A program made the translations under genes and the position numbers. The notes below the pieces were generated by a model. It did not search any database and had not been told where the DNA came from. It was given only the letters and a program-made list of their open reading frames with translations. From Devriesea agamarum (GTDB taxonomy: Bacteria > Actinomycetota > Actinomycetes > Actinomycetales > Dermabacteraceae), in assembly GCF_900070355.1 (NCBI RefSeq), contig NZ_LN849456.1, positions 1,488,001 to 1,552,000 of the forward strand: a stretch of DNA of 64,000 bases. Reading direction: 5' to 3'. How positions within the stretch are numbered: position 1 is the stretch's first letter; each line of letters opens with the position of its first letter. Below are positions 25,076 through 57,910 of the stretch, in pieces.

Positions 25076-26235
25076 CCACGCCCCCGGCCCAGGCGGCCGC
25101 TGCCACCGCGCACACCGCAGCGCCGATCAACGAGCGCGGCGTCATGCTCGATATCGGCCGTAAAGACTTTTCTCCGGGGTGGATTTTCTGGCTCCTGGAT
25201 CAAATGGCCGAACGAGATCTGACGACGCTGCAGCTGCACCTGTCCGATGGTCTCGGTTTCCGCATCGCTTCACATGCCTACCCTGATGTCACCTCGCCCC
25301 ATCACCTGCTGCGTCACGATGTGCTGGAGATTTTAGAGGCGGCGGAGGATCGCGGCATCACCGTGATTGGAGATGTCGACACCCCGTCGCATATGGAATA
25401 CCTGCTGCGCAACCGGCCCGAGTTCTCGCTGCGCCTGGCTGATGGCCGGACGCTTCCCGGGCATCTGGATCTGTCGTTGGCGGCAGCGCGGGAATTCGTG
25501 CGGGATGTCGTCAGCGACATGGTGGACCTGTTTCGGTCGCGCCCCGCTGGTGCCCGCGTGTTCCACCTGGGTGGGGATGAGTATTTCCCAGCGCCCTGGC
25601 AGGAGGGCACTGATCATGCGTTCACCGATGAGGATGCGCCTCAGCTCGGGGCGTGGGCGCGGGAGGTGACCGGGGACCAGCGCGCCACCATGTATGACGC
25701 CTACACCCTGTATATGAACTCCCTCGCGGACCTGGTGCGGTCGCGCGGTTTGACCGCACGCATTTGGAATGACCATGTTCGCCCTGGTCAGGGCGTGGTT
25801 CGCTTGGATCCACAGACCCAGGTTGATGTCTGGGTGCGCTGGAATGACACGTTCCCGAGCGCCACCGATATTGCCCGGCAAGGCCACGATCTGATCAACT
25901 CCAATGGTGACTACCTGTACATCATCTTGACCGAAGAAGGTATCGGCACCGGACCGTGGAAGAACCCTCAGGGTGTGAAGTCATATTTCCATCCGCGACG
26001 TTTTATGGGGGCGGCTGGGTCTCACGCCGACCACGATGTCGATGCCAGTATTCCGGTGATCGGCTCCCACCTGTCGATCTGGTGCGACCACCCCGATGCG
26101 GTTTGCGAACAGGAGCTGGCCGCGATCATTCCGGCGTGGCTGGACGCCTACGCGGCTGCGACTCGCTCCGACCGTCCCCTTCCCCCTTCTCCCCATGTGA
26201 CACTGCACCATACCAAAACCCAATTTGGCAGATGA
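25072..26235 (+). CDS. GH20 beta-N-acetylhexosaminidase, catalytic domain only
   Basis: 387 residues forming essentially one GH20 TIM barrel. RGVMLDIGRKDF, LQLHLSDGLGFRI, DVDTPSHM and FHLGGDEYF with the catalytic Asp169-Glu170 pair are present; the Asp polarises the acetamido group in substrate-assisted catalysis. The common N-terminal GH20b domain is absent. No signal peptide is seen, so it should cut beta-linked GlcNAc or GalNAc from imported oligosaccharides in the cytosol. It overlaps the kinase gene by 4 bases and precedes two sulfatase genes. Confidence 0.9.
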   Translation: MTTPPAQAAAATAHTAAPINERGVMLDIGRKDFSPGWIFWLLDQMAERDLTTLQLHLSDGLGFRIASHAYPDVTSPHHLLRHDVLEILEAAEDRGITVIGDVDTPSHMEYLLRNRPEFSLRLADGRTLPGHLDLSLAAAREFVRDVVSDMVDLFRSRPAGARVFHLGGDEYFPAPWQEGTDHAFTDEDAPQLGAWAREVTGDQRATMYDAYTLYMNSLADLVRSRGLTARIWNDHVRPGQGVVRLDPQTQVDVWVRWNDTFPSATDIARQGHDLINSNGDYLYIILTEEGIGTGPWKNPQGVKSYFHPRRFMGAAGSHADHDVDASIPVIGSHLSIWCDHPDAVCEQELAAIIPAWLDAYAAATRSDRPLPPSPHVTLHHTKTQFGR

Positions 26236-26242
26236 TTATGCG

Positions 26243-34475: not shown

Positions 34476-34491
34476 ACTGGTCCAGACAAGT
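34476..34491. promoter_or_regulatory. dre-like operator (DasR-type) upstream of EIIB1-EIIA
   Basis: ACTGGTCCAGACAAGT matches 13 of 16 positions of the Streptomyces DasR-responsive element ACTGGTCTAGACCACT. It lies in the 192-base gap between EIIB2 and EIIB1, upstream of EIIB1-EIIA. Together with the second site at 35781 it supports control by the adjacent GntR regulator. Confidence 0.75.
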
Positions 34492-34592: not shown

Positions 34593-34856
34593 TCAGTCTT
34601 CCCAAATACTTTCGGCAACATCATCAGCCAGGAACTCCGCCGTCGGGCCGACGATAATCTGCACCGCGGTGCCAATCGCTGAGTACCCATGGAAGGGCAA
34701 GGCAGCCAGCGCTCTACGGTCCAACAGGTCGGGATCAACCACCTGGACACGCAAACGCGTCACGCAGGGTTCCAGCTCAACGATGTTTTGAGCACCCCCC
34801 AGAGCCGACACGATGCGTTCGATAACTCCCTGGGGACCGCCAGATTGGTGGTTCAT
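34593..34856 (-). CDS. PTS glucose/GlcNAc-family EIIB protein 2
   Basis: 87 residues, a second stand-alone EIIB domain with phosphorylated Cys31 in LEPCVTRLRVQV and the closing IGTAVQIIVGPTAEF segment. It is clearly paralogous to EIIB1. It overlaps the stop of the GntR regulator gene (ATGA), so regulator and EIIB2 are coupled. Two EIIBs beside one EIIC suggests either redundancy or that one serves an EIIC elsewhere in the genome. Confidence 0.9.
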   Translation of the reverse strand: MNHQSGGPQGVIERIVSALGGAQNIVELEPCVTRLRVQVVDPDLLDRRALAALPFHGYSAIGTAVQIIVGPTAEFLADDVAESIWED

Positions 34857-35593
34857 GCCGCTCCTCCCGCACGCATACCCGCCCTGCGCGATCCTGTAGG
34901 CCCCGCGATGGGCACCCAGAGCGTGTACTTATCCCCGCGATAGTAAGACACCGAGAACAGGACTGGCACCGATTCGGCGAAGGTTCGCCGGGAGATCTTT
35001 AAAGCCGGTGATCCGCATTCCACGGACAACACCTCCGCTCCGTCGTCATCCAGCACCACTGCTTCGATGACATCCTCACCCCAGGTTGGGGCATAACCGC
35101 GTTCTTCAAGTTCTTCATGCAGGCTAAATGGAACCGCTGTAGCGATTAAACCCGGCAACAGTTCCGCTGGTAGCCAGGTGGTTTCGTCCGCCACCGGAAT
35201 CCCGTCAGCCAAACGAATTCGGCGCACCAGGTACACCGGCGCACCGACCTCCAAACCTAGCGATGCGGCCACTTTGACTGACGCGAGCTCCTGCGTCGCC
35301 GTCAACACTTTGGATGACGGGATCATGCCGCGGCTGCGCATCTCCTGCGAAAAAGACTGGATGCGCGGCTGCAAGTCAATCCGGGGCTGCGCCACGAACG
35401 TCCCCTTGCCTTGGACCCGCACCAAAAGTCCCTCATTGACCATCGCATCGACCGCTTGGCGCACGGTCATTCGAGAGACCTCAAAACGCTCACACAGACT
35501 GCGTTCCGAGGGGATGGCATCCCCCGGCATGAGCCCAGCCTCCAGGAGTCCGCGCAGGTAGGCCTGGACTCTCACGTATTTCATGCCCGCCAT
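34853..35593 (-). CDS. GntR/HutC-family regulator, DasR-like
   Basis: About 246 residues. The N-terminal winged helix (residues 10-75) shows GDAIPSERSLCERFEVSRMTVRQAVDAM in overlapping pieces, with VRVQGKGTFVAQPR at the wing; the C-terminal UTRA effector domain spans about 95-235 (SRGMIPSSKVL, YLVRRIRLADGIPVADETTWLP). HutC-type members such as DasR and NagR sense glucosamine-6-P or GlcNAc-6-P. The surrounding PTS genes and two dre-like sites indicate the same role. ATG 35593 or 35584 may be the start; neither has an obvious ribosome site. It is divergent from the EIIC gene. Confidence 0.85.
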   Translation of the reverse strand: MAGMKYVRVQAYLRGLLEAGLMPGDAIPSERSLCERFEVSRMTVRQAVDAMVNEGLLVRVQGKGTFVAQPRIDLQPRIQSFSQEMRSRGMIPSSKVLTATQELASVKVAASLGLEVGAPVYLVRRIRLADGIPVADETTWLPAELLPGLIATAVPFSLHEELEERGYAPTWGEDVIEAVVLDDDGAEVLSVECGSPALKISRRTFAESVPVLFSVSYYRGDKYTLWVPIAGPTGSRRAGMRAGGAA

Positions 35594-35669
35594 TATCACG
35601 CGAGTTGCCGACGCTTTAAGCCAGATCCGGTGCAGGAACATCTTTTTGCACCCTCTCCCACCCCGCCGC

Positions 35670-35707
35670 ATAGCGATGTGGCCCACAGATAGCGATGTGG
35701 CCCACAG
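35670..35707. repeat. 19-bp tandem duplication in regulator/EIIC promoter region
   Basis: Two identical 19-bp units (ATAGCGATGTGGCCCACAG at 35670-35688 and 35689-35707) lie between the divergent GntR and EIIC genes. They could duplicate a regulatory site or simply change promoter spacing for the minus-strand regulator gene. Confidence 0.9.
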
Positions 35708-35742
35708 GAGGTATCGGTTGGACAACCGCAACCCCGACGGGC

Positions 35743-35748
35743 TTGACA
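35743..35748 (+). promoter_or_regulatory. Possible -35 element of the EIIC gene
   Basis: A consensus TTGACA lies 33 bases before the dre-like site at 35781-35796, which would place that operator near the transcription start. No good -10 hexamer was identified, so the call is tentative. Confidence 0.4.
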
Positions 35749-35780
35749 GACCCGACCTTCGCGGCTTTCACTGATGTGTA

Positions 35781-35796
35781 AGTGGTCCAGACAACT
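35781..35796. promoter_or_regulatory. dre-like operator (DasR-type) upstream of EIIC
   Basis: AGTGGTCCAGACAACT matches 13 of 16 positions of the DasR consensus (ACTGGTCTAGACCACT) and lies 70 bases before the EIIC start codon, downstream of a TTGACA. The position fits repression by the divergent GntR protein. Confidence 0.78.
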
Positions 35797-35865
35797 AGAT
35801 GTTGGTGCGAAGCCTCGCACGGGGACCAAGACGATCACCGTCGCTCGACGCGGAGGACACCTACT

Positions 35866-37242
35866 ATGGCGGGACAAGCGGGCTCGGCAACTGCCGCCCC
35901 GAAGAAGAAACGTTCAATCCCTGGATTCGCTCAGGCCCAGCGCGTTGGCCGTTCGCTGATGATGCCCATTGCATCTCTGCCGGCGGCCGCACTCCTCATG
36001 CGCATCGGCCAGCCAGACATGCTGGGTAAAGAAGGTCTTGCCCAGTACGCACACTGGCTAGAGCCCGTAGCCGAAGTTCTGGCGGCTGCTGGCGGAGCCA
36101 TCTTCGACAATCTGCCCCTGATCTTCGCCCTTGGCGTTGCCATCGGCTATGCCAAAAAGGCTGATGGTTCCACTGGCCTGGCCGCCGTCATCGGCTACCT
36201 GGTCATGAGCAATGTCTTTAAGGCGCTGGCACCGTACTGGGGCTCGGCAGGAAATGATGGCGAGAAAGTCATCAACTACGGGGTCCTCGGCGGCATCGTC
36301 ATCGGTATCGTCGCCGCCCTGCTCTACCAGCGGTTCCACCGCACCAAACTGCCCCCGTACCTGGCGTTCTTCGGCGGGCGCCGTTTCGTGCCGATCATTA
36401 CCTCATTCGCCGCTGTGCTGATCGGCCTCGTACTGGGGATCATCTACCCGCTGTTCAACTGGCTGTTCAACGAAAAAATTGGCAACTTCCTGATGGAACA
36501 CGCCGCGAACCCCGGTACCGGGTTCATTTTCGGTACCCTCAACCGGTTGCTGATCCCCTTCGGTCTGCACCACCTGCTCAACTCCCTGCCCTGGTTCCAG
36601 CTCGGCTCCTGCACCAACGACAAGGGCGCCACCGTTCACGGTGACATCACGTGCTTCTTCGCCGGTGTTGACGGAACCAACGCCTGGACCGGCTCCTTCA
36701 TGACCGGTTTCTTCCCGATCATGATGTTCGCTCTTCCGGCAGCTGCTCTGGCCATTTACCACACGGCAAAGCCCGAGCGGAAGAAGATCACCGGCGGCAT
36801 CATGCTGTCAGTGGGTCTGACCGCGTTCCTCACCGGTATCACCGAGCCTCTTGAGTACGCCTTCGCCTACGTCGCCTTCCCGCTGTACGCGGTCCACGCG
36901 GTGCTGACCGGTACCTCGCTGGCCTTGGTGAATGCTCTCGGCATTAAAGACGGATTCGGCTTCTCCGCAGGTCTGTTCGACTATCTGCTGAACTTCGGAC
37001 GAGCCAGCGACCTGTCGGGAAGCGCATGGAAGGTGCTCGCACTGATCTTGATCGGTTTGTGCTATGCAGTGATTTACTACCTGCTCTTCCGCTTCGCAAT
37101 CACCCGCTTTAAGCTGCACACTCCGGGCCGGGAAGACGGCACCGAAGGCGAAGCAGTGTCGGTATTCGACGAAGCACAGATCGCCGCGGAAAAGCGTTCC
37201 GGAAAGAAAGCCGCAGAACCCGACCGCGGTCAAAAGAAATAG
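35866..37242 (+). CDS. PTS glucose/GlcNAc-family EIIC permease
   Basis: About 458 residues. QRVGRSLMMPIASLPAAALL near the start, GLHHLLNSLPWFQLG in the middle and GITEPLEYAFAY are the signatures of NagE/PtsG EIIC domains, with about 10 hydrophobic segments. It carries no fused EIIB or EIIA, which are the separate proteins encoded on the other strand. ATG 35866 has GGAGG 9 bases upstream. GlcNAc is the most probable substrate, judged from the DasR-like control and neighbouring hexosaminidases; glucose or maltose cannot be excluded. The C-terminal tail is charged. Confidence 0.9.
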   Translation: MAGQAGSATAAPKKKRSIPGFAQAQRVGRSLMMPIASLPAAALLMRIGQPDMLGKEGLAQYAHWLEPVAEVLAAAGGAIFDNLPLIFALGVAIGYAKKADGSTGLAAVIGYLVMSNVFKALAPYWGSAGNDGEKVINYGVLGGIVIGIVAALLYQRFHRTKLPPYLAFFGGRRFVPIITSFAAVLIGLVLGIIYPLFNWLFNEKIGNFLMEHAANPGTGFIFGTLNRLLIPFGLHHLLNSLPWFQLGSCTNDKGATVHGDITCFFAGVDGTNAWTGSFMTGFFPIMMFALPAAALAIYHTAKPERKKITGGIMLSVGLTAFLTGITEPLEYAFAYVAFPLYAVHAVLTGTSLALVNALGIKDGFGFSAGLFDYLLNFGRASDLSGSAWKVLALILIGLCYAVIYYLLFRFAITRFKLHTPGREDGTEGEAVSVFDEAQIAAEKRSGKKAAEPDRGQKK

Positions 37243-37288
37243 CGACCCACCACAGTCGCACCTAACTATAAATAGTCACCCCAGATCA

Positions 37289-37325
37289 TCACCCGGCGAT
37301 CCCTACCCCAGGGACCACCGGGTGA
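37289..37325 (+). terminator. Hairpin terminator after EIIC
   Basis: TCACCCGG (37289-37296) pairs with CCGGGTGA (37318-37325), with an inner TCCCT/AGGGA stem. It begins 46 bases after the EIIC stop and precedes the next PTS operon. The T-tract is weak. Confidence 0.65.
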
Positions 37326-37403
37326 TATCTTGTGATCCTAGGCACACTACCTGGGTGAGAGTCATAAACCGCAGGGTGACCGAACCGTTCGAGGAGGAAC
37401 GCA

Positions 37404-37859
37404 ATGACCACAACCTCTGCTCTGCTAGACCTCCTTCCCGCATGCGCGATCAAAACCAAAGCGCGCGCCGTCTCGTGGCGGGACGCTGTGACCATGGCCG
37501 GCAATCTCCTGGTCGACGCAGGTAACACCACCCCGGTGTACATCAATGCCATGATCGACGCGATATTGCGCTACGGGCCGTACGTCGTGATTGCCCCCGG
37601 GGTAGCCCTAGCCCATTCCCGCCCCGACACATCCGTGCTCAGCACCGGATTCTCATGGCTGAGCCTAGAAAAGCCCGTGGAGTTCGGCTCCACCGTCAAC
37701 GACCCAGTACACCTCGTCATCGGCCTTGCAGCAACGGATGCAAAACAGCATGTGCAAGCGCTGGCTGTTGTCGCCGAGCTGATTTCCGACCGCAAGCGCC
37801 TGGACGCGCTGTTAGCGGCGCCCGATGACGATGCCCTGCGCGCTGCACTCGCCGAGTAA
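37404..37859 (+). CDS. PTS EIIA protein, ascorbate/mannitol-type (UlaC-like)
   Basis: 151 residues of the PTS_EIIA_2 family. GVALAHSRPDTSVLSTGFSW includes the phosphorylated His71 and FGSTVNDPVHLVIGLAATD the conserved follow-up region. The gene starts an EIIA-EIIB-EIIC set. GAGGAGG lies 7 bases before the ATG at 37404, a strong site. The family serves ascorbate-type (AG superfamily) permeases. Confidence 0.9.
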   Translation: MTTTSALLDLLPACAIKTKARAVSWRDAVTMAGNLLVDAGNTTPVYINAMIDAILRYGPYVVIAPGVALAHSRPDTSVLSTGFSWLSLEKPVEFGSTVNDPVHLVIGLAATDAKQHVQALAVVAELISDRKRLDALLAAPDDDALRAALAE

Positions 37860-38006
37860 TACTCGCCGCGCAGCACAATCAGCAGACGCCAACGGACCAT
37901 TCGCACCATCAGCAATCAATCCTCCACATCGACTAGCCTCCGCTAACCCACTAGAGCCAGCAGCGCTATTGGTCAGCCCACGCACCTCATCCGAAAGGAA
38001 AGCCTT

Positions 38007-38279
38007 ATGAAGATCATCGCCGTGTGCGGAATGGGGATTGGAACCTCAATCATCCTCAAAATGACCATCGACCGCGCAATAAACGACCTCGGTGTCGATG
38101 CCGACGTCGAAGCCGCCGATATCTCCTCCGCCCGCGGGGCCGCAGCCATGGCCGATCTAGTGCTGACATCCGCTGAGCTCGCGGACGCACTCGGAGACGT
38201 CGACACCCCCATCGAAGTCATCACCGATTTCACCGATGTTGACGCCGTCAAAGCGGCCATTTCCCGCCACGCCGATTAA
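38007..38279 (+). CDS. PTS EIIB protein, ascorbate-type (UlaB-like)
   Basis: 90 residues, Rossmann-like EIIB with phosphorylated Cys7 in VCGMGIGTSIILKM. It sits between the EIIA and EIIC genes of the same set. A 147-base gap separates it from EIIA, longer than usual, but GAAAGGAAAG precedes the ATG. It passes phosphate from EIIA to the substrate in the EIIC. Confidence 0.9.
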   Translation: MKIIAVCGMGIGTSIILKMTIDRAINDLGVDADVEAADISSARGAAAMADLVLTSAELADALGDVDTPIEVITDFTDVDAVKAAISRHAD

Positions 38280-38290
38280 GCAGGGCTGAG

Positions 38291-39760
38291 ATGGGGATTG
38301 TCCTGGCCATCGCGAGTTTCATCGTTAACCAGATTCTGTCGGTCCCCGCGTTCCTGGTCGGGATCGTGGTGGCCATCGGGTTGATCGCGCTGAGACGCAA
38401 CACCGGCCAGGTCATCGGCGGCGCGCTGAAAGCCGTGCTCGGATTCCTGATTTTGTCCGCCGGTGCATCCGTAGTCACCTCGTCCCTGGAGCCGCTCGGG
38501 GAGATGATTCTCGGCGCCACCGGAGCGCAGGGAGTTGTGCCGACCAACGAAGCCATCGTCTCCATCGCCCAAAATCAATTCGGCACCATCACCGCCTGGG
38601 TGATGATCGCTGGATTCGCGGTGGCGATCATCCTGGCCCGCTTCACCCCGTTGAAGTACGTCTTTCTCACCGGCCATCACGTGTTCTTTATGGCCACCAT
38701 GCTCACCGTGGTTCTGGCAACCGCGAAGGTCAGCTCAGTTATTCAGGTGGTGGTCGGGGCTATCCTCCTGGGCACCATCATGGTGGTCATGCCCGCGTTG
38801 GCACATCCGTGGATGAAAAAAGTTACCGGGAACAACAAGCTCGCCATTGGCCATTTCGGAACCCTTGGATACATTGTGTCGGGCGCTATCGGTCAGGCCG
38901 TGGGACGTCGTTCAAAATCCACCGAAGATATGCGCCTGCCGCAATCTCTGCATTTCCTTCGCGACTCCATGGTTGCTACCGCTCTATCAATGGTGCTGTT
39001 TTACGCGGTGTTCTGCGTGGCCTACCTTCTGCGCGCCGGAACTCCTGCCGCTTTAAAACTGTTTAACTCCCCCGACGTCGGCGCATACGTGGTCACTGCT
39101 CTCACCAAAGGCCTGATGTTCGGGGTTGGGGTTGCCATCATCCTCTACGGGGTGCGCATCATACTCGGCGAGCTAGTACCCGCATTCCAGGGCATCGCCG
39201 AGAAAGTCGTCCCCGGGGCGGTCCCAGCTTTGGACTGCCCGATTGTGTTCCCGTTCGCACCCAATGCAGTACTGATCGGCTTTATTTTCTCCTTCGCAGG
39301 TGGCCTGCTATCCTTGGGCGCCTTAGCGTTAATTTTCGGCCCGCTATTCGGCCTCGCCCTCATTTTGCCCGGGATGGTCCCGCACTTCTTCACCGGCGGA
39401 GCTGCCGGAGTATTCGGCAATGCCACCGGCGGACGCCGCGGCGCGATGTGCGGCGCATTTGCCAACGGCATCATCATCACCGTCCTCCCCGCCCTATTAC
39501 TCAAAGTGCTCGGTTCCCTCGGGTTTGCAAACACCACCTTTGGCGACGCCGACTTCGGCTGGTATGGGACACTCATCGGCCACGCCATACAGGCTGGCCC
39601 CATCATCGGAATTATCCTCACCCTGATCATCGCCGCGATTTTGGTGGTGGGTGCCTCGTGGTGGCAGCGGCGGGTGGTGAACCGCGGATGGCTACCAGCG
39701 GCAGGGCACACCGAGTTTTTAGCCGAGGTGAAGAAAGCCGACAAAGCCAAGCGGGGGTAG
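38291..39760 (+). CDS. PTS EIIC permease, ascorbate-type (UlaA/SgaT-like)
   Basis: 489 residues with about 11 hydrophobic segments. LIALRRNTGQVIGGALKAVLG near the start, TGHHVFFMATML, GTLGYIVSGAIGQAVG and LDCPIVFPFAPNAVLIGFIFS are characteristic of the UlaA family. The ATG lies 11 bases after the EIIB stop. Ascorbate catabolic enzymes (UlaD, E, F, G) are not present nearby, and the next gene is a glycan hydrolase fusion, so the sugar carried may be something other than ascorbate. It is convergent with the GH35-GH20 gene. Confidence 0.88.
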   Translation: MGIVLAIASFIVNQILSVPAFLVGIVVAIGLIALRRNTGQVIGGALKAVLGFLILSAGASVVTSSLEPLGEMILGATGAQGVVPTNEAIVSIAQNQFGTITAWVMIAGFAVAIILARFTPLKYVFLTGHHVFFMATMLTVVLATAKVSSVIQVVVGAILLGTIMVVMPALAHPWMKKVTGNNKLAIGHFGTLGYIVSGAIGQAVGRRSKSTEDMRLPQSLHFLRDSMVATALSMVLFYAVFCVAYLLRAGTPAALKLFNSPDVGAYVVTALTKGLMFGVGVAIILYGVRIILGELVPAFQGIAEKVVPGAVPALDCPIVFPFAPNAVLIGFIFSFAGGLLSLGALALIFGPLFGLALILPGMVPHFFTGGAAGVFGNATGGRRGAMCGAFANGIIITVLPALLLKVLGSLGFANTTFGDADFGWYGTLIGHAIQAGPIIGIILTLIIAAILVVGASWWQRRVVNRGWLPAAGHTEFLAEVKKADKAKRG

Positions 39761-39890: not shown

Positions 39891-42800
39891 TCAGGCATCA
39901 CCGATGACCGTGGCTCGACGGATCCACACCGAAATTTCCTGAGTATCCAGTCCATCAGCCCCGCATCTCTGCACCCCTGAGCCTGCGCAGCGACGGCGCT
40001 CAATCCCTCCCGGATTCCACACCCGTTCAGCCATGGCGCGCAACGGAAGACGCATGCCGTCCTCAATCTGCTCCGGCGTTTCAGCCTCGGGCGCATCGCA
40101 CCACAGAGCGAAATAGGAACCCGTAATCCATGCGGGCGTGGGATCCAGCCAACTCTGCGGAATCTGGCCATGGTCGGGGCACGGCGCGGGCCGAGTGGAG
40201 AAGATACCGGGGGACCAATTCAAAGCTGCGGCTGCCGTCGGATGTACGTCGTAGGCGCGACCCGGCGTGGTCACTACATAGTAGAAGCGGGAGTCATTGG
40301 TGTTGATCACCGTGTGCCCGCGTTCAGCGAAGCGCTCCACCGGCGCAAACGCCCGATGCCAGGCCGTCCAGTACATCACCGTGATGTGTGGATCCAAACC
40401 CAGACAGGTTCCGGGAAGATAGGACGCATCGTTCCAGGCCCTCACCTCCTGCACTCCGAGCACGCGCAAGCGGGTAGCTACCTCGTGGAGGAAATACGTG
40501 TACCCGTCGAGCACACTCGCACCCTCCCCGACCTGATCAATCGCATACGCGGCAAGCTGCGGATAACGAGCAGCCAGCGGTGCCTGCCACGATGCGGGGT
40601 CATCGGCGGACACTTCCTCCATGCTGAAGACTTCATCACCGCCCAAATGCCAGGATCGCGAAGGGAACAGGGGCACGAACTCCTCCAGCAGATCCCACAA
40701 AAGCTGTCGTGCCTCGGGATTGGAGTAGTCCAGGATCTTCCGGCCTTCGTCGCTGTCACCGGCGCGATACTCGGGGTTCTGCGCGAGGATCTGGGCCATA
40801 TGACCGGGCACATCGAGCGCGGGCACAATCCGAACGTGATAGTGCTCAGCCTCTGCTACAAGCTGCTTCACCTCGTCCCGAGTCAAAAACTCACCGGACA
40901 TAATCTCCGGGTGCGACCGACACTCCACCCGAAAACCTTCATTTTCGGAAAAATGAAGCTGGAGTTCATTCAGTTTCACGTAGGCGGCCTGACGCACCTG
41001 CCGAATCAGCCAGTCCAGATCGAAATATTTGCGCGCGGCATCAATATGCAGACCTCGCACTGGCTTATTTGGCTCATCGACCGCAACCGCCGGGGGAATC
41101 TCAGTATTGACCCGTAGCGCCTGGAGCGCGCTGCGGGTTGCCCAGAACAGTCCATCCCGGCCAGCTCCGCGCAGATCGAGATAGTCACCGGCCACAATCC
41201 GATAAGCCTCCGGGCTGGTGGTGCCGACGACCTCTCCGTACCCGAGCACGATGTCTCCCGGTTGCGGTGACGGTTCATCCTGCGAGGTCACCACGGGAAG
41301 ATCCCGCCCGGTAATGCCCCTAAGGTCGCGGCGCAGAAGCTCAGCATCTGCGGTTAAGGATTGGATGTCTCCGCGCGGCGTGGAGTTTTGATTGTGCGGG
41401 GCCGGGGGCACCGGGCGCAGCAGAATCCGCGAGGTGGGGGTGAGACGGAACGGGTTACCGCTGGTAGCCGTCAGATTCTGAATCGTGGGAACTACACAGG
41501 CCAGGCCCGAGTTATCGAGCAACCGGCGCGGCGCAACCACCTCGGGAAGATTGTGCAGCGCCCCGGTCGAGGAATGGACCGGCACGAGCCGGATCGCCTC
41601 TGGGCCCGCACCTGCCGCTTTCGCACTGATCACCGCAACCACCGTGTTGGCACCGCGCTGGTTCAGCAGGCCCAACGGTACGGTGAAGGCATTTTGCGGT
41701 CCGATATCACCGATGAACACCCCGACATTCCAGCCGTTGACGAACAGCACGATCTGGCAGGGATCATGGCGGCCCTCCTCGAACCGGGAGGAGTCAATCA
41801 CCAGTTGCCATGCGGTGTCCTGGTCCGTCGGCACGTCGAGTGTGACCGATGCGCGATACCAGCACACCCCTGGCCGGTCGGCGACCAGACTGCTCGTAGA
41901 GCTCCAGCCAGCGGGGACACCTGCGCTGTCAGCTGCTGCTGCATGGGACGCCGGGTCAGCGGGCAGTTCCGGGAGGTACCAACCGTGGCGCTCTCCGCCC
42001 AGGCCCCCGACGTTGTAGATCGTGCGGGCGGTATCCCAAGGGGTATCGCGGTCGATCGCCCCTTGCAGCCGCCACATCACGGCCTCGGTGGCGGGAAGTT
42101 CCGCATCGAACAGCCCTCGGTTCTGCCTGGATAGTCCATCGTCTGACCAGTCAAGGTTCTGCCCGAGATTGTGCACCAAAACCGCCAGCACCACTTCACG
42201 GCCCGGAGCGAAGTCGTGCTCTGCACCGGGGCCATAGCCCGACGCTAGATTAGGCCCAGCACATTCCTGCGCGCCGGTCTCTACGGGCTCGACCCTATCT
42301 GAAGGCACACCCGTATCCTTGCTGGTCACGGGCGGAATAGGCAGGGTCTGCCAGGTGCCGTCGGCGGTAGCAGCGCCGAGATAGTGGCCGTTGAGCCAAA
42401 CCTGCATGAACGCCGGGGCTTTACCGTGCGGAGGCTGACCAGTGCCGCCGTTGCCGATCAGGCGAAGCTGACCGCCGTCACCTGGCAGATCGGCGAGCGT
42501 AAACCGCGCCCGATACCATACGGCGCCTTCGTAAAACCCGTAGTGATTCGAGTCCAGCACCACGCCTTGGGTACCGGGGCCTTGCCACGGCGTGGAACCC
42601 ACCGTCGAATCCGCGACCTGCCAGGACGAGTCGTCGAAATCAGGGCGGAACTCATCGTCGTCACGGCGGGCGATCCAGGTGAGCTCAGGGGCGCTGACCG
42701 ACACCGGGCCTGGCACCTGGCCGCACGCCTCAGCGCTGCTCAGACCGGCAACCTCCGGGCTATCCGACCCGACATCCCTCGTCTTACCCGAATCGACATC

Positions 42801-45725
42801 CTCCCCGCTGCTCACACCACCAGCGAGCTTTTGCCCGTTCCAGGTGGCCTCGGTGATGCCGTCGGGGCAGTCCAGATATATCGTGCCCGGCTTGCACATT
42901 CCGCCGGTGACATGGGCGCTCTGCCCGTCGATGAGAACGCCGCGCACGAATTCAGCGCCATGAACCACCACGATGGTATTTCCGTCCGCATCAATGGCCT
43001 GCAGATCAATCGCATCCGACGCCTCACCGCGGACGAACCACACGCTCGCGGCCTGTGCCCGCCCCATTGGTCGCAGTACCAGCGTATGGGCAGCTGCGAC
43101 ATCACCCGGGGCCGGATCGATGCGAATGTCGAGACCGCCGTGCCCGCGTTCAAAACCGCCCCGCCCGATCGCGATATCTTCGCCGTTACAGACATCCACG
43201 CCGGCGTGAACACCGGCGCCGTCGCATTCGCCGTTGGTGTTGGGGCTAGCACCGGCGTTGGGTTTGGAGTTGACGGGATGCTCGGCCAGCCTCGCGCCGT
43301 CGCCCTGGGTTTCATTCTCCGGCATTCCATGCCGGTAGTTCAGCCGAAGCTCGCCACGCGTTTCATCCCACGTCGTCTCCACTTCGGCAGCGCCTGTACC
43401 CGACGCAGTCACCACCGGAGGCTGGTCGTAGCGCAGCACAGTTTCGCCGGGGTCGCCGTCATAGCCAACGAGGTACTGCACCGTAGATCGCTGTCGATCG
43501 GCGCCAGCATCAGCATTCCCGCTGTCAGCGCGGCCCCCAATCACCCGGGAAAGCGGCTCACCGAACAGCTGAGAGGTGGTGTACAGCAGCCGATGTTCAC
43601 CTATCCGCAGATCAGCAGCCATTAATAGGGCATCCCGACCGTGCAGGTGCAACTGGTCACCGGCGCGCTGAGGAATGCGCTCCCAGCGCGGGTGATCCCG
43701 ATCAGTGGCTGGTTGCTGAGCCTGAGTAGGTGACGGGCGATGCCCGTCCGATGGGCTCTCCCCCAACCCGGTGTGGGGATGCGCCTGAGCATTCACGCTT
43801 GGCTGTTCAGCAGCACTGGTGTTCGGTTGTGCTGAAGCGCTGGGCTCCACGAGTTCTAAAGCATCCAGTGCGACCACGCTGCCCCGGCTTCCCGTGGCCG
43901 GTGTGCCCAGGACCTCGATGCTCAGAGAATGCTCCCCCGCCGGCAGATCCCGTACCTGGAGAGCAACAAATTGCGTGGGGCGATTTTGATCGGTGGGCAC
44001 CCAACCGGTGATGGTGCCCCGGTCAGTGCCGTCAATGATCACTCTCGCCATTCCGTGATCGGTGCCCGTTCCGAGAATGACATCTACCCCGACGCCTTTA
44101 AACGAACAGGTCACGCGATCCCCCGCAGTGGCGGAGCGGGTGAGAGTGCCGTCATATGCTGACGAATCATTCACCTGTTCCCAGGACCCCTCGAAATGCA
44201 CCTGTGGGTTCCGGTCATCCAGTCGCAGGGTTGAGGCGAGGTCGGGGACCTCAGATGCGGGTGCCAAATCGAGAGAGATGGTGAAGGACACCTCGGATTC
44301 GCTGTTGGAGTCCGCCAACCGGTATCCGAGCATCCTCGGGGCGCCGTGCGCGGTGGCGGCAAGCACGCCCGGGTCGGTCGCGATCCGCTGGTAACCATGG
44401 ATTGCAGCCCTGCCGCCTGTGCTTTCAGTCCCCGCACCCGAGGTCCTGGTATCTTTCACCGGGGCAGGTGCGACCGGGCGCATAGACGCCAGGTCCGGCA
44501 GCGCATCTTGGTACGCGGCAAGTTCCTTTTGTACTGCGAGTTTCGGCGTCACCACGCGGTTCTCGTCAATCGCAGCCCCATAGTCGTAGCTGGTGAAACC
44601 CGACGACGGGGAGCCGGTCCAACCCCAGTTCGTTCCCCCAAACACCATGTAGTAATTGAACGCGGTGACACCATTACCGATATTGCGCACACCCCACTGC
44701 CGGGTAAAGGCACCATCGACGTACCGGGCCGCCTGAGCAATGTCGACATTCGCACCCCACGGAGTGAAAGTGCCACCCTGCGATTCGGTGATGAACTGCG
44801 GAGAGGACGAAGTATGCCGGCGGGCAGTGCTCTCGGATTCCCCGATCAGCCCGCGAGACGCTGTGCTGTCAAAACCGAGGGGATAGTAGTCGTAGGCATA
44901 AAAATCCAATCCATACTGTTTAACATCGCTGAACCGACCGCCGAGCGCGAAATCGTTATGAAAGACGGGCACGGCGATCCCGCCGCTGCGCACATGATCG
45001 GCGAGTATCCGCACGAACTCTGCACGGTCCCCCTGATCAGTGAGCATCTCGTTTTCAACCTGGTACATGAGCACGCTGCCACCGCCGTTGCTCACTTGAT
45101 GGCGCGCAATGATGTCGGTAACCGCGCTCATCCAGGCGAGGCTGTCACGCAGATTGTCCGGGTCCAGGCCGCGCAACGGACCAGGTCGGTTCGTCATATA
45201 CGCGGGCAGGCCCCCCATCGAAATTTCGGCGTTGATGTAGGGGCCGGGACGGGCGATCACATAGAGCCCTTCTTCCCGCGCCATGGTCAGCAGCAGATCG
45301 AGGTCGCGAATACCTGAGAAGTCAAACGGGCCATCCGGTGCGCTCTGGTGGAAGCCCCAGAAGAAATAGAGTGAGACGGCGTTAAAGCCCGCTCCGCGCA
45401 TTTTCTGGAAGATATCTCGCCAGTGCCCGGGCGAGGGCAGTCGCCAGTAGTGCAGTTCGCCGGAGAAGATATGCAGCCGCGTACCGTCGACGAAGAAGGA
45501 ACGCTGGTCCCAGGAGACGCGGTGTGGCCTGCGGTCATTTCCCGGGAACTTCATGGTGCCCCGGACCGTTCCGGTCACCTGGAGGTTTGACAGTATGGAA
45601 CGCGCGTCATCGTGGCTCATAGTGGTTCGATTCCATCCCGCGAAGTATCCCGGTGTCAACCGGACATCAGACATCCCCCGTGACACGAGCGGTCTTTCGA
45701 CCATGCCTGCCAGTTTCTTCACCAT
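39891..45725 (-). CDS. Bifunctional GH35 beta-galactosidase / GH20 beta-N-acetylhexosaminidase
   Basis: A single 1944-residue chain. Residues about 75-400 are a GH35 barrel: LHIFSGELHYWRLP, VIARPGPYINAE, acid/base Glu226 in YQVENEM and nucleophile Glu314 in FITESQGG. Residues about 400-1420 hold beta-rich, galactose-binding-like modules (for example near 530-630, 1080-1180, 1290-1380) with low-complexity linkers at about 635-690 and 830-870. Residues about 1430-1900 are a GH20b plus GH20 domain: VRGLHIDAARKYFDL, LQLHFSENEGFRV, ALDVPGHM and the catalytic Asp1697-Glu1698 in WHLGGDEVF. It should remove beta-galactose and then beta-GlcNAc/GalNAc from one oligosaccharide. No signal peptide is seen. 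The start may be 45725, 45674 or 45620. Confidence 0.9.
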   Translation of the reverse strand: MVKKLAGMVERPLVSRGMSDVRLTPGYFAGWNRTTMSHDDARSILSNLQVTGTVRGTMKFPGNDRRPHRVSWDQRSFFVDGTRLHIFSGELHYWRLPSPGHWRDIFQKMRGAGFNAVSLYFFWGFHQSAPDGPFDFSGIRDLDLLLTMAREEGLYVIARPGPYINAEISMGGLPAYMTNRPGPLRGLDPDNLRDSLAWMSAVTDIIARHQVSNGGGSVLMYQVENEMLTDQGDRAEFVRILADHVRSGGIAVPVFHNDFALGGRFSDVKQYGLDFYAYDYYPLGFDSTASRGLIGESESTARRHTSSSPQFITESQGGTFTPWGANVDIAQAARYVDGAFTRQWGVRNIGNGVTAFNYYMVFGGTNWGWTGSPSSGFTSYDYGAAIDENRVVTPKLAVQKELAAYQDALPDLASMRPVAPAPVKDTRTSGAGTESTGGRAAIHGYQRIATDPGVLAATAHGAPRMLGYRLADSNSESEVSFTISLDLAPASEVPDLASTLRLDDRNPQVHFEGSWEQVNDSSAYDGTLTRSATAGDRVTCSFKGVGVDVILGTGTDHGMARVIIDGTDRGTITGWVPTDQNRPTQFVALQVRDLPAGEHSLSIEVLGTPATGSRGSVVALDALELVEPSASAQPNTSAAEQPSVNAQAHPHTGLGESPSDGHRPSPTQAQQPATDRDHPRWERIPQRAGDQLHLHGRDALLMAADLRIGEHRLLYTTSQLFGEPLSRVIGGRADSGNADAGADRQRSTVQYLVGYDGDPGETVLRYDQPPVVTASGTGAAEVETTWDETRGELRLNYRHGMPENETQGDGARLAEHPVNSKPNAGASPNTNGECDGAGVHAGVDVCNGEDIAIGRGGFERGHGGLDIRIDPAPGDVAAAHTLVLRPMGRAQAASVWFVRGEASDAIDLQAIDADGNTIVVVHGAEFVRGVLIDGQSAHVTGGMCKPGTIYLDCPDGITEATWNGQKLAGGVSSGEDVDSGKTRDVGSDSPEVAGLSSAEACGQVPGPVSVSAPELTWIARRDDDEFRPDFDDSSWQVADSTVGSTPWQGPGTQGVVLDSNHYGFYEGAVWYRARFTLADLPGDGGQLRLIGNGGTGQPPHGKAPAFMQVWLNGHYLGAATADGTWQTLPIPPVTSKDTGVPSDRVEPVETGAQECAGPNLASGYGPGAEHDFAPGREVVLAVLVHNLGQNLDWSDDGLSRQNRGLFDAELPATEAVMWRLQGAIDRDTPWDTARTIYNVGGLGGERHGWYLPELPADPASHAAAADSAGVPAGWSSTSSLVADRPGVCWYRASVTLDVPTDQDTAWQLVIDSSRFEEGRHDPCQIVLFVNGWNVGVFIGDIGPQNAFTVPLGLLNQRGANTVVAVISAKAAGAGPEAIRLVPVHSSTGALHNLPEVVAPRRLLDNSGLACVVPTIQNLTATSGNPFRLTPTSRILLRPVPPAPHNQNSTPRGDIQSLTADAELLRRDLRGITGRDLPVVTSQDEPSPQPGDIVLGYGEVVGTTSPEAYRIVAGDYLDLRGAGRDGLFWATRSALQALRVNTEIPPAVAVDEPNKPVRGLHIDAARKYFDLDWLIRQVRQAAYVKLNELQLHFSENEGFRVECRSHPEIMSGEFLTRDEVKQLVAEAEHYHVRIVPALDVPGHMAQILAQNPEYRAGDSDEGRKILDYSNPEARQLLWDLLEEFVPLFPSRSWHLGGDEVFSMEEVSADDPASWQAPLAARYPQLAAYAIDQVGEGASVLDGYTYFLHEVATRLRVLGVQEVRAWNDASYLPGTCLGLDPHITVMYWTAWHRAFAPVERFAERGHTVINTNDSRFYYVVTTPGRAYDVHPTAAAALNWSPGIFSTRPAPCPDHGQIPQSWLDPTPAWITGSYFALWCDAPEAETPEQIEDGMRLPLRAMAERVWNPGGIERRRCAGSGVQRCGADGLDTQEISVWIRRATVIGDA

Positions 45726-51989: not shown

Positions 51990-53837
51990 CTAATCAACCG
52001 CATCCCACGCAGCAATTAGCCGCGCCCGCAGGTCGTGATAAGCCCTGCCGTCCACCGGGTAGCGGCGCAGATCAATATCGGCAAACGGACCGAGTAGCCG
52101 TGCGAATTCTTCCGGATCGAGCTGAGCTTGCACCGCAGTCAGCAGGCGATGGTCGACGAAGGCGTCGGCTAGCACCCGGTGACGCACTGACCTCCAGATC
52201 TGGCCGCCCTCCCCCGGATAAACCACGAAGGTATCGCCGCCAGGGAAAGCCGCCCCGGCTGTGGTATCGCGGAAAGGATCTGTTGATCGCCTCGACAACT
52301 GGGTGTTGTAGAAGTTGAAACCCCAGTGCAAAAATCCGGCGGCTCCCGTGGACCACAGCTGCACACCGATCGCGCGATGCCGGGGACGGGGCTGGGCGAA
52401 GAACCGGTTCGAGACGTCTTTGGACTGCGCCATGCAGTAGTACAACCAGAAATCATTGCGCTGATCAGCCAACCGAGGGTGGGACAAGAACGCGTCAGCG
52501 TGGTCAGTAGCGATCACCGGAAGATCCAAGACTTCAAGCATGTCTACTTCGCTGACCGCGTCTGCCGTCCTAAATCCTCGCAGAAGGTCTGTGACCACGC
52601 CGCGCGCCGCTTGGTATCCCTGACGAGCCCAGGCGCCGGGTTCATCGGAGACATGGAAAATAATGCGCCGTGGATCCCAGCAATCAGTGAGTTCGTTGAT
52701 CAGCGCAGGGAGCAGTTGCTTAAGCAGGTTGCGGTAAGACGGGTCGGTGGCGGGCACATCCCATCCGAATGCGGGTTCCGGGCCATTGCCGGAGTCGATC
52801 AAGAACGAGGGACATGCGGTCGCGCCCCACTGAGTGAACAGGTGTGGCATTTCCAGCGTTGTGATGCCGAGCCGCCGACACATCTCAACCCACCATCGCA
52901 GCAGCGAGAAATCGAACTCGTACCGCACAGAATCCACGGCGACCTGTGGGGACGTATGTGCGGCTTCCATCGCCCGGGCAGGATCCACCTCGCCCGATGG
53001 AGCGTTCCGCGTGGTCTGCGGGACTTTTGCGTTATCGGCGTGGCATGGCGGGACCTCACGAATCCCGACTAACTGGGTGGGCTGGCGCCGAGCACCGACG
53101 GCGGTATCCAAGGGCGGGGTCCATACAGGGGTGAGCACGGTGTTCACACCCATCTCGACGGCAGCTTCCAGAATCCGTTCGCACACGCGCCGATGCTCCG
53201 GACCGAAAACATCGTGGTCGTAATAGGCAGCGATACCGTCGAGGTGAATCCACTCGGTGTGCGCAATGCTCAGGGGCGGCAGCGCGCGTCGAGCACACCG
53301 AACTGGTTGGATAACTGTCCCGAGTGCCTCTCCCGCCGGGTCATAAAGCGTGACCGTGAGCGCCGCGTCACGCTCAATATCGACACCGTCATCATCGCGA
53401 ACCCGAACATCGAGCCAGAGACTGCGCCATTGCCCGAGGACAGCGGGAATTCCTTCGACGGTGAGGTGTCCCTGCCCATCATCGGTTGTGGGAAGCGGCC
53501 GCAGCACGTCGGGGAACAGACCGGGATCCGGGCGCACATAGCCGTCGTCGTGGTCCTCATAGGCGGGCAGATCGCACGGCACCAGGTCCACGGCATAGGC
53601 GTGCACGTCGAGACCACTAGGAACCTCAATGCGTGCCCGCATCCCATCGCTCAGTAGGAATGAGGGGGTTGTCGGAGGCTGGTACGCCACCTGCGCCGAG
53701 ACGATCTCCCCGGGAATCGCTATCAGCGGAGAAACGTCATGCTTAGGATCGCCGCTACTGCGCTCTAGGCCGTCCGCGAAGACAGCGGTCAGCGAATCGA
53801 CGACATGAAAAGTCCAGGTTGTACGTGATGTCGTCAT
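51990..53837 (-). CDS. GH123-like / DUF4091 glycoside hydrolase
   Basis: 615 residues. N-terminal beta-rich domains (about 1-190) precede a TIM-barrel-like part with LLRWWVEMCRRLGITTLEMP, and the C-terminal part (HRAIGVQLWSTGAAGFLHWGFNFY) has the DUF4091 signature. FHVSDEPGAWARQG contains the adjacent Asp398-Glu399 pair expected for substrate-assisted catalysis in GH123 beta-N-acetylgalactosaminidases. No signal peptide is seen, so it acts on imported sugar. It is the last gene of an operon with an ABC sugar importer (214-base gap). The exact linkage is unknown; GalNAc-containing glycans are likely. Confidence 0.75.
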   Translation of the reverse strand: MTTSRTTWTFHVVDSLTAVFADGLERSSGDPKHDVSPLIAIPGEIVSAQVAYQPPTTPSFLLSDGMRARIEVPSGLDVHAYAVDLVPCDLPAYEDHDDGYVRPDPGLFPDVLRPLPTTDDGQGHLTVEGIPAVLGQWRSLWLDVRVRDDDGVDIERDAALTVTLYDPAGEALGTVIQPVRCARRALPPLSIAHTEWIHLDGIAAYYDHDVFGPEHRRVCERILEAAVEMGVNTVLTPVWTPPLDTAVGARRQPTQLVGIREVPPCHADNAKVPQTTRNAPSGEVDPARAMEAAHTSPQVAVDSVRYEFDFSLLRWWVEMCRRLGITTLEMPHLFTQWGATACPSFLIDSGNGPEPAFGWDVPATDPSYRNLLKQLLPALINELTDCWDPRRIIFHVSDEPGAWARQGYQAARGVVTDLLRGFRTADAVSEVDMLEVLDLPVIATDHADAFLSHPRLADQRNDFWLYYCMAQSKDVSNRFFAQPRPRHRAIGVQLWSTGAAGFLHWGFNFYNTQLSRRSTDPFRDTTAGAAFPGGDTFVVYPGEGGQIWRSVRHRVLADAFVDHRLLTAVQAQLDPEEFARLLGPFADIDLRRYPVDGRAYHDLRARLIAAWDAVD

Positions 53838-54051: not shown

Positions 54052-55047
54052 TTATCCCTTGACGGAGCCTTCGGTGAGGCCACCGCGCCAGAACCGTTGC
54101 AGAATCAGCATGAGGATCACCAGCGGAATCACACTGACCAGCGCACCACCAATAGTCAGTGAGTAGAACTCTGGCGACCGGTTGGTCTGCGCGTTCCACG
54201 TGGTCAGTCCGAGCGTGATTGGGTACAGCGATTCATCGGCCAGCATCACCAGCGGCAGCAAATAGTTATTCCAGATCGCAACAAACTGGAATAGGAAAAT
54301 CGTGACGAGCGCCGGCGCCAACTGTCGCAGTGCGAGTGAATGGAAAATCCTGAGCTCACCCGCCCCATCCAGCCGACCCGATTCAAGCAGGGAGTCGGGG
54401 ATCGCGGCGTCGGCATAAATCCGAGCGAGGAACATGCCGAAGGGCGAGACCATAGAGGGAATGAGAACCGACCAGTACGTATTGGTCAGACCAAGCATGT
54501 TAAAGACAAAAAACAGCGGGAGCGCCACAGCCGTTCCCGGAACCAGCACACCACCGAGCACGAAACCGAAGATGAGATTGCGTCCGCGGAAACGATATTT
54601 AGCTAACGCATAGCCACAGGCGGCCGCAAAATACGTGGCGAGAAGTGCCCCAAGTCCGGCGTACAGCAGGGAGTTGAGGCCCCACCGCACGAATGCACCG
54701 TCATTCGCCGTGAATACGTCCTTGAGGTTTTCCCAGAGCAAAAACTTGTGCCCGAACCAGAAACCGTTGGATCCGAACAGATCTTCGGAGGATTTTGTGG
54801 CGTTAATAATCACCCAGTACAGCGGAACGAGAAAGTACAGGGCGATGACCGATAGAAGCGAGGTAACGATGATCCGCGAGGCGGCACTACGACCAGCTTC
54901 GCGTCGCACTCGGCGCGGACGCGCCGCCGCAGCCTTTGATTCTGCCGCACCAGCCACCCCAGATGCACCGGAGCTAGTACCCACACGTGGGGCTGAGGAG
55001 GGTGCTTCCTGCTGGGGCGAGGATGTCGCATTGGGTCCCGAGCTCAT
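54052..55047 (-). CDS. ABC sugar transporter permease (MalG/UgpE type)
   Basis: 331 residues. After an Ala/Pro/Ser-rich hydrophilic N-terminus (about 55 residues) six membrane helices follow, with the EAA-loop ESGRLDGAGELRIFHSLALRQLAPAL contacting the ATPase (seen as DSLLESGRLDGAGEL). It overlaps the previous permease by 4 bases. The partner ATPase is not in the operon, so a shared MsiK-type ATPase is expected, as is common in actinobacterial sugar importers (family knowledge). Confidence 0.92.
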   Translation of the reverse strand: MSSGPNATSSPQQEAPSSAPRVGTSSGASGVAGAAESKAAAARPRRVRREAGRSAASRIIVTSLLSVIALYFLVPLYWVIINATKSSEDLFGSNGFWFGHKFLLWENLKDVFTANDGAFVRWGLNSLLYAGLGALLATYFAAACGYALAKYRFRGRNLIFGFVLGGVLVPGTAVALPLFFVFNMLGLTNTYWSVLIPSMVSPFGMFLARIYADAAIPDSLLESGRLDGAGELRIFHSLALRQLAPALVTIFLFQFVAIWNNYLLPLVMLADESLYPITLGLTTWNAQTNRSPEFYSLTIGGALVSVIPLVILMLILQRFWRGGLTEGSVKG

Positions 55048-55925
55048 TTCCGTCCTCCTCGATGCGAAATAGCTAGCGCAACTGCCGACAAGATGAAGGC
55101 GGCGAGCGCAATCAACACCGCTTGGGCCGAGGCCACCCCGATGTCATGGAACTGGAACGCATAGGTGTATGCGGACAGGTTCGGCGTGAATTCTTTGTCG
55201 ATGCTTGGAGCCACATCCGCTAGCACTTGCGGTTCAGCGAACAATTGCAAGGTGCCGATGATCGAGAAGATGATGGTCAGCAGTAACGCGGGGCGGATCA
55301 ATGGAACTTGAATACTGCGGGCGATGCGCAGCGGTCCGGCGCCGTCGATCTTCGCGGCTTCGTAAATCTCCGGGGGAATAGATTTCAGCTGCGCCACGAT
55401 AATCAGCATGTTGTACCCGGTATATGTCCAGGTCACAATGTTGGCAATAGACCAGAGAACGGTTTCTGGACTGAGGAAGTCAACCTGGATGCCCGTCCAG
55501 CTGAGCACATCGACCACGGGCGACAGACCGGGCACGTACAGGAACGACCACAAAATCGTCGCGATCACCCCGGGGATGCCGTAGGGAAGGAAATAGGCCG
55601 TGCGGAACAGCCAAGGCCAGGCCGCGGATGCGCTCTCTAGCAGCAGAGCGAGTACCGTTGCCGCAATAATCATGACGCTGACCTGCACGATACCGAATAC
55701 GATCATGCGACCAATCGAATGCACGAAGTTCGGGTTACTCAGCGCCTGAATATAGTTGTCAAACCCAGCGAAGCTGGTGGTGGACCCTTCATTGCCAACT
55801 AGGCCGTGCCGAGAGACCGTGAGGAAGCTTTGCTGAATGGCGATAATGATCGGCACAATGATTGTGAGAACAAACAGCAGCAGAAACGGCGCCATCAGAA
55901 TCCACGGCGCAGCTTTGTTTTTCAT
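55044..55925 (-). CDS. ABC sugar transporter permease (MalF/UgpA type)
   Basis: 293 residues, six membrane helices starting APWILMAPFLLLFVLTII. The EAA loop is IYEAAKIDGAGPLRIARSIQ. ATG 55925 overlaps the binding-protein stop (ATGA) with GAGGAGG just upstream; the open frame extends further back but that part overlaps the binding protein and is not membrane-like. It forms the channel heterodimer with the MalG-type permease. Confidence 0.93.
   Translation of the reverse strand: MKNKAAPWILMAPFLLLFVLTIIVPIIIAIQQSFLTVSRHGLVGNEGSTTSFAGFDNYIQALSNPNFVHSIGRMIVFGIVQVSVMIIAATVLALLLESASAAWPWLFRTAYFLPYGIPGVIATILWSFLYVPGLSPVVDVLSWTGIQVDFLSPETVLWSIANIVTWTYTGYNMLIIVAQLKSIPPEIYEAAKIDGAGPLRIARSIQVPLIRPALLLTIIFSIIGTLQLFAEPQVLADVAPSIDKEFTPNLSAYTYAFQFHDIGVASAQAVLIALAAFILSAVALAISHRGGRK

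Positions 55926-57361: not shown

Positions 57362-57910
<549 letters not shown>

Follow-up and report, generated by a model that had tools for sequence, protein, structure and literature searches.

A GH35-GH20 fusion gene in a single reading frame

The window, i.e., the whole stretch of 64,000 nucleotides of Devriesea agamarum DNA that was analysed, carries on its minus strand a stop-free reading frame of 1944 codons, which begins with ATG and lies inside an open frame of 1961 codons (Table 1). Pfam identifies in the encoded protein a GH35 catalytic domain (PF01301, 247.5 bits versus a curated cut-off of 27, E 3e-73) followed by GH20b (PF02838, 40.7 versus 26.1 bits) and GH20 domains (PF00728, 117.3 versus 22.3 bits, E 1e-33), with BetaGal_ABD2 placed best at residues 1245-1366. 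The source genome is a single contig of 2,958,880 bases and 99.99 % complete. Both halves share one frame across the fusion joint, where homopolymers of five or more bases are absent; elsewhere the gene has a run of five C in GH20b (residue 1429) and one of six G at residue 170. In addition, GC3 is steady, each full block of 108 codons lying between 0.60 and 0.78. The fusion is thus unlikely to result from a frame or assembly error, and a frameshift at the joint, by which according to the first-pass annotation two genes might have been merged, was rejected. The product of 1944 residues and about 210 kDa, with one frame across the joint and both catalytic pairs present, can be considered real.

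The last ~37 residues (1908-1944; 39891-40004) could not be aligned with GH20 relatives and, except for a final helix, are poorly predicted in the model. Between 39700 and 47700 no sigma-70-type promoter was detected on the strand of the fusion gene, and the two found on the opposite strand correspond to the chance level. Searches for RNA families (at gathering thresholds) and for tRNA genes returned none.

Table 1. Features of the fusion gene and of its surroundings (positions in the window)
Feature	Position	Strand	Basis or remark
GH35-GH20 fusion gene	39891..45725	-	1944 codons, ATG, no signal-like N-terminus
GH35 catalytic barrel (residues 76-403)	44517..45500	-	Pfam, alignments
E226 codon	45048-45050	-	
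E314 codon	44784-44786	-	
Approximate CBM-type jelly-roll (about residues 498-630)	43836..44234	-	Foldseek 7ehg, 2wz8; place and boundaries inferred
β-Galactosidase domains 2 and 3, lineage-specific inserts included (about residues 684-968)	42822..43676	-	weak sub-cut-off Pfam matches, alignments, Foldseek
C-terminal β-galactosidase jelly-rolls (about residues 1010-1397)	41535..42698	-	stand-alone relatives stop here
Fusion joint (residues 1387-1411)	41493..41567	-	frame maintained; homopolymers below five bases
GH20b domain (residues 1411-1550)	41076..41495	-	Pfam, AF2 model
GH20 catalytic barrel (residues 1557-1905)	40011..41057	-	Pfam, alignments, AF2 model
R1565 codon	41031-41033	-	
D1697 codon	40635-40637	-	
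E1698 codon	40632-40634	-	
ABC importer sugar-binding protein	55922..57376	-	possible substrate supplier; putative link to the fusion
Two ABC sugar permeases	54052..56081	-	relatives beside stand-alone GH35 genes
GH123-family protein	51990..53837	-	no evident signal peptide; downstream of importer genes
GntR/UTRA regulator (-); GlcNAc/glucose-type PTS IIC, EIIA, EIIB (by eye) and ascorbate-type EIIC-GAT (+)	34853..39760	- and +	

The GH35 half

Judged by alignments and models, the N-terminal half (residues 1 to about 1397) is a five-domain GH35 β-galactosidase of the fungal type. E226, in an ENE motif, and E314, in an ESQGG motif, align with the ENE and EFQGG motifs of fungal β-galactosidases and are invariant across 11 aligned GH35 sequences. 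The closest solved relatives are the five-domain enzymes of Trichoderma reesei (3og2), Penicillium (1tg7) and Aspergillus (4iug/5ifp), which have the same barrel, the same catalytic glutamates and matching β-domains up to residue ~1390. However, the fungal proteins are listed as β-galactosidases alone, while the window protein adds inserts, an apparent CBM-type module and GH20, and has no signal. Linkage preference varies among GH35 members.

The alignment to 3og2 proceeds in four stretches, spanning the barrel and the C-terminal jelly-rolls together with part of domain 2. Pfam matches to β-galactosidase domains 2 and 3 remain below the cut-off; that to BetaGal_ABD2 exceeds it. For the model of residues 420-1397 (pLDDT 73.0), the top five Foldseek chains are all fungal GH35 enzymes, with a TM of only 0.46-0.48. 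The same search also returns CBM-type jelly-rolls (7ehg, target TM 0.65-0.67; 2wz8, a family 35 CBM, 0.64), and the GH35 half thus appears to include an extra CBM-type module. The low-confidence stretches largely overlap with inserts of 5-39 residues that are missing from at least eight of ten relatives. Since residues 420-1397 resemble the fungal GH35 β-domains in sequence and predicted fold and the low-confidence parts are largely inserts, the region between the two active sites is mainly β-galactosidase. The first-pass annotation had described the active sites as separated by about 1000 residues of β-rich modules and had proposed a structure prediction for them; these modules do not form a spacer of their own.

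The GH20 half and its specificity

D1697 and E1698 align with Asp320 and Glu321 of LnbB, the lacto-N-biosidase of B. bifidum, and the D-E pair is found in all 75 rows of a GH20 alignment that was derived from 94 matches by dropping four for length as well as duplicates. The -1 pocket residues R1565, W1764, W1786 and W1875 are also present. In the pairwise alignment Tyr419 of LnbB is paired with F1814, while the Tyr column of the multiple alignment falls on residue 1815, where all but one of the 75 rows have Y; judging from these alignments, Y1815 is most likely the catalytic tyrosine. With both catalytic pairs aligned to those of known enzymes and conserved in relatives, the claim of two intact active sites is borne out.

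The GH20 half is modelled by AF2 with a pLDDT of 88.9. Three lacto-N-biosidases are its best PDB sequence matches, and LnbB (4h04), StrLNBase (8hvb) and TrpyGH20 (9fyn) are the closest solved GH20 enzymes in both sequence and fold. Among Foldseek's top 1000 chains, VIA-align Z scores reach 36.3-38.6 for lacto-N-biosidases and at most 35.0 for the remaining GH20 rows; the Foldseek TM of the model to lacto-N-biosidases is 0.70-0.75. A lacto-N-biosidase was suspected from these PDB matches but was downgraded once subsite -2 had been mapped. In LnbB this subsite is composed of Gln190, Glu216, Asn259, His263, Asp467 and Leu574, and twelve LnbB residues discussed in the same source map onto the GH20 half at a single constant offset (PMC8004761). 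His263 and Asp467 are kept as H1642 and D1877, while R1565, H1591 and D1638 occupy the places of Gln190, Glu216 and Asn259; hence two of the five mapped residues are retained and three replaced, Leu574 falling past the end of the alignment. In LnbB, Q190L leaves 0.6 % of the activity and N259A and N259Q leave 1.6 and 0.07 %, compared to 43 % for Q190H and 18 % for E216A (PMC8004761). LnbB furthermore requires a C-terminal lectin-like domain (PMC4449183), whereas the fusion protein ends about 40 residues past GH20, with no such domain following.

D1562, R1565 and H1591 are common to 71 of the 75 GH20 rows, including that of the window; in the four exceptional rows C is paired with V, Q or R, and position 1638 holds N or G. 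At positions 1565, 1591 and 1638, L173_13356 has Q, E, N and L159_16175 has V, E, N; both are lacto-N-biosidase-like proteins of related loci. With R1565, H1591 and D1638, the pocket of the window GH20 is predicted to be of the exo-hexosaminidase type. The motif W1875-x-D1877 occurs in 59 of the 75 rows; because the six other fusions described below have W-x-E instead, the window enzyme may differ from them in specificity. The stretch near the catalytic Tyr, where 6-sulfo-GlcNAcases have a sulfate-binding motif, reads FYYVVTTPGR and matches no such motif listed in the passages of PMC11659886 considered here, whose authors consider this activity not predictable from sequence alone.

The N-terminus and the likely location of the protein

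The first-pass annotation had noted the lack of a signal peptide, and a heuristic comparison agrees: read from the first codon of the open frame, the N-terminus reaches a 14-residue mean hydropathy of 0.57 at best, while 62 of 64 relatives reach 1.27 or more, the other two being a downstream fragment and a GH35 of 28 % identity. Inspection by eye of the three frames on the strand of the gene revealed no signal peptide just upstream, and since a reading frame on the opposite strand starts with ATG ~86 bases upstream (by eye), there is little room for a hidden one. Pfam detects neither an anchor nor a cell-wall module. The six other fusions and the stand-alone relatives possess an export-type N-terminus, which has probably been lost in the window fusion, and the protein would thus be located in the cytosol. 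No signal peptide is evident by eye in the small GH20, the two sulfatases and the GH123 protein of the window.

Stand-alone relatives and fusions in other bacteria

The search of the family covered 47 genomes, counting that of the window, and ten of the remaining ones encode close relatives of the GH35 half. These stand-alone proteins (1153-1353 aa) are 50-55 % identical to it and stop within about ten residues of window residue 1397, at the fusion joint; their export-type N-termini look Tat-like by eye. Apart from the window genome, none of the 46 genomes covered by this search showed a GH35-GH20 fusion. The Brachybacterium proteins (L122, L123, L126, L127, L129 and L153; rows under Dermabacteraceae) are nearest to the window in the GH35 tree and belong to the same subfamily, with the above identity over the half, but they measure 1158-1353 aa, have an export-type N-terminus, end at the joint and lack GH20.

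Named genomes were also scanned with the GH35 half of the window, which led to 66 loci, 62 of them with a GH35 frame of at least 150 aa; L124, L128, L149 and L151 have no callable GH35 frame, and fragments include L139, L157, L171 and L176. The survey for fusions covered loci of the window's GH35 subfamily and detected GH20 with a custom HMM. GH20 is found within the GH35 frame in 6 of the 62 named loci and in both domain orders. GH35 precedes GH20 in Cutibacterium namnetense (2100 aa) and Streptosporangium pseudovulgare (2445 aa), and follows it in Varibaculum cambriense (2286 aa), a record of Tissierella sp. Marseille-P2918 (2280 aa) and two Arcanobacterium MAGs (2404 and 2531 aa). Pfam agreed on four of these six fusions, L140 and L156 being called by the custom HMM, and F5/8-type modules are present in all four other fusions run through Pfam. 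A domain search for both families in one protein, suggested at the outset, is thus positive for the window protein but also for six further ones in other genera: the fusion is notable for its signal-less form, whereas its architecture has precedents.

The C. namnetense protein (L125) has the same domain order, with GH20b at the equivalent place after the GH35 unit, but differs by an export-type N-terminus, a C-terminal F5/8 module, a GH20 of another clade and W-x-E. The Varibaculum cambriense and Arcanobacterium sp. proteins (L142, L156 and L161) likewise contain both catalytic families in a single chain, but in reverse order and in 2286-2531 aa, with an export-type N-terminus and F5/8 modules (by Pfam in L142 and L161). 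GH20 genes that are separate from the GH35 gene but adjoin it occur at two Buchananella loci (L151, L154) and in Humibacter (L173). The fused GH20 of the Tissierella record (L140) is 97 % identical to that of Varibaculum (L142), and this record is probably misnamed or mixed. A relative of the C. namnetense fusion in Cutibacterium modestum (L139:8830-13868) is split into shorter frames and appears broken. Beside the Varibaculum fusion gene, a second gene (L142:13358-18880) encodes a further glycosidase fusion of 1840 aa. It combines a sialidase-type repeat domain with GH20b-GH20 and with NPCBM and Rib modules, and its GH20 pocket lacks the D and H that are otherwise typical.

Quick trees with SH-aLRT support only were built for GH20 (75 rows cut to 48 by dropping most Streptomyces-like rows) and for GH35 (60 rows, after removal of rows with fewer than 330 aligned residues or less than 38 % identity). 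Each needs four changes between the fused and the unfused state, and branches with a support of at least 95 force four such changes. Long-branch warnings concern L045, L159_1919 and L174 in the GH20 tree and nine rows, including the window, in the GH35 tree; the end branch of the window measures 0.68 in the former and 0.45 (tool-flagged) in the latter. The window GH20 sits in a major clade different from that of the six other fusions' GH20s, and most simply its fusion would have arisen independently of theirs. Four separate gains of the GH35-GH20 joining are the simplest reading of the trees, although losses could be among the four changes.

GH20 scans at E 1e-45 matched 17 of 396 genomes at the level of the order, 42 of 394 in the class and 13 of 396 in the phylum (overlapping samples, with up to three candidates per genome among the matches listed). 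Among the matches listed, the window open frame alone exceeds 1600 aa; a frame in G952 has 1512 aa, its end being unread. In the open full-text literature, which leaves subscription journals mostly outside, no paper describing the joint GH35-GH20 architecture was met, and we do not claim that it is undescribed. The sole related statement was a sentence on C. acnes in PMC6160142, which does not say there whether the two are fused.

Gene neighbourhood and possible N-glycan context

Since none of the neighbouring genes is co-directional with the fusion gene and the importer is 8 kb away, the tie between importer and fusion comes from neighbourhoods in other genomes. Permeases 44-48 % identical to those of the window adjoin stand-alone GH35 genes in Tessaracoccus/Arachnia (L135, L148 and L152), where the binding proteins are only 25-27 % identical to the window's. 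PDB matches of the latter include the galacto-N-biose/lacto-N-biose binder 2z8d (rank 5, E 1.5e-34). The PTS sets possibly take up or recycle released sugars. On the plus strand (23984-29260), genes for a PfkB kinase, a small GH20 of 387 aa and a pair of sulfatases (C-x-P-x-R) have overlapping or abutting frames and look like a cytosolic sulfated-glycan unit; a third sulfatase is encoded at G000:C1:1751208. The importer, GH123, the small GH20, the two sulfatases and the two PTS sets are consistent with an intracellular use of host-type glycans.

No NagR/DasR-type operator was detected at the start of the fusion gene, and loose matches in the whole window (22 versus 17.4 expected) are near chance. 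Identical 12-mers, TGGTCCAGACAA, are present at 34478-34489 and 35783-35794, around the GntR/PTS genes, and resemble a NagR/DasR-type operator.

In the GH20 tree, a group of 11 rows forms the sister of the window's group, with a support of 90 that is not starred. Eight loci of this sister group were examined with their flanks, and in five of them (L079, L083, L084, L085 and L087) GH20 directly follows ABC sugar permeases. At L084, the permeases and GH20 are preceded by a GH38-type gene and by another homologue, which we take to be GH5_18; Pfam gave no match for the latter protein. A cytoplasmic GH38/GH5_18/GH20 locus for N-glycans has been proposed for C. acnes (PMC6160142), and these arrangements resemble it. 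The genome of the window also contains a GH38 gene and a homologue 47 % identical to the putative GH5_18 protein of L084, far apart from each other. They are dispersed, at G000:C1:2466803-2467954 (putatively GH5_18-like) and 1378214-1378990 (GH38), and no ABC or GH20 relative was seen beside them in the stretches fetched. The idea that GH20 moved into the fusion from an N-glycan core locus of the same genome was considered; the dispersed genes neither support nor exclude it. The window's own GH20 group comprises larger proteins (L073, 1336 aa; L075, 975 aa; L077, 916 aa) and a 329-aa frame at L057. Because Pfam detects F5/8 modules in L073 and L075, and cell-wall-binding repeats in L073, the ancestor of the window GH20 domain may have been secreted.

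Proposed function and alternative readings

Computation directly provides the architecture, the catalytic residues, the signal-less N-terminus and the separate origin of the GH20 domain. As to activities, order of action, substrate, importer and localisation, we infer that the protein is, on balance probably, a cytosolic exo-glycosidase with two activities, which removes β-Gal and then β-GlcNAc from imported oligosaccharides ending in Galβ-GlcNAc. Oligosaccharides with LacNAc or lacto-N-biose ends, or complex N-glycan antennae, would enter the cytoplasm via the ABC importer, the five-domain GH35 unit would cut off the terminal β-linked galactose, and GH20b-GH20 would then free the exposed β-linked N-acetylhexosamine, most likely GlcNAc, by substrate-assisted catalysis. 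The gene itself would have originated by in-frame joining of an exported-type GH35 to GH20, and its export signal would have been lost. Removal of Gal and then of HexNAc had already been suggested from the sequence and is plausible for a chain in which both catalytic domains are intact; that trimming should be "processive" is unsupported. More tentatively, and with some doubt on our part, the joining of GH35 and GH20 could be a recurrent solution (four times, in both orders) for Galβ-GlcNAc ends of host glycans that has here been moved indoors, the cytosolic fusion completing antenna removal together with the sulfatases, the small GH20 and GH123 on oligosaccharides that are possibly sulfated.

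A location at the cell surface, reached by non-classical export or lysis, where the fusion would trim outside host glycans as its relatives do, appears improbable. It would be in line with the export-type N-terminus of 62 of the 64 relatives, and the pneumococcal BgaC is cited as a surface GH35 lacking a typical signal (PMC6160142). However, the anchor or cell-wall modules sought with Pfam are absent from the window fusion, whereas the four other fusions submitted to Pfam carry F5/8-type modules, and the window's other glycan hydrolases have no evident signal (by eye) while importer genes lie nearby. There is even less reason to expect that the GH20 half is a lacto-N-biosidase releasing Galβ1-3GlcNAc, in which case the two domains would compete for the glycan or use different forms of it. 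Neither the best sequence and fold matches nor the conserved H1642 and D1877 make up for the replacement of Gln190, Glu216 and Asn259, given that Q190L and N259A/Q nearly abolish LnbB activity, even if Q190H and E216A indicate that not every such change is fatal (PMC8004761). The lectin-like domain needed by LnbB (PMC4449183) is missing as well, and the lacto-N-biosidase-like proteins L173_13356 and L159_16175 carry subsite residues unlike those of the window.

We give equally little credit to a decaying gene that has lost its signal and in which one or both activities are gone or going. The inserts over low-confidence stretches, the unalignable tail, the long end branches in both trees and the apparently broken C. 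modestum relative would fit such a scenario, but the 1944 uninterrupted codons with steady codon bias, the conserved catalytic and -1 pocket residues and the well-modelled GH20 half argue against it. The joining of two genes by an assembly or sequencing error is the most far-fetched of these alternatives: against the absence of the fusion from the other 46 family genomes searched stand the single frame over a joint without homopolymers of five or more, the single contig and the unchanged codon bias, and analogous fusions have been assembled independently in other genera.

If the protein is a cytosolic two-activity enzyme as proposed, the fusion links two activities acting in turn on LacNAc, lacto-N-biose or N-glycan antennae, and the repeated, apparently independent joining of GH35 and GH20 suggests that both serve one pathway. 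The signal-less form offers a single enzyme with which to ask whether fusion speeds intracellular sequential trimming, and it could serve as a one-step tool for taking off Gal-GlcNAc ends. A worked precedent for the logic of such a fusion is SiaBb3 of B. bifidum (GH33-GH123), in which two exo-glycosidases in one polypeptide act sequentially on one host epitope (PMC12856340); the likeness is one of analogy, with other families and another glycan, and activities assayed there but predicted here. Another combination of catalytic units is observed at L080:5822-9553, where a 1243-aa protein consists of two tandem GH20b-GH20 units.
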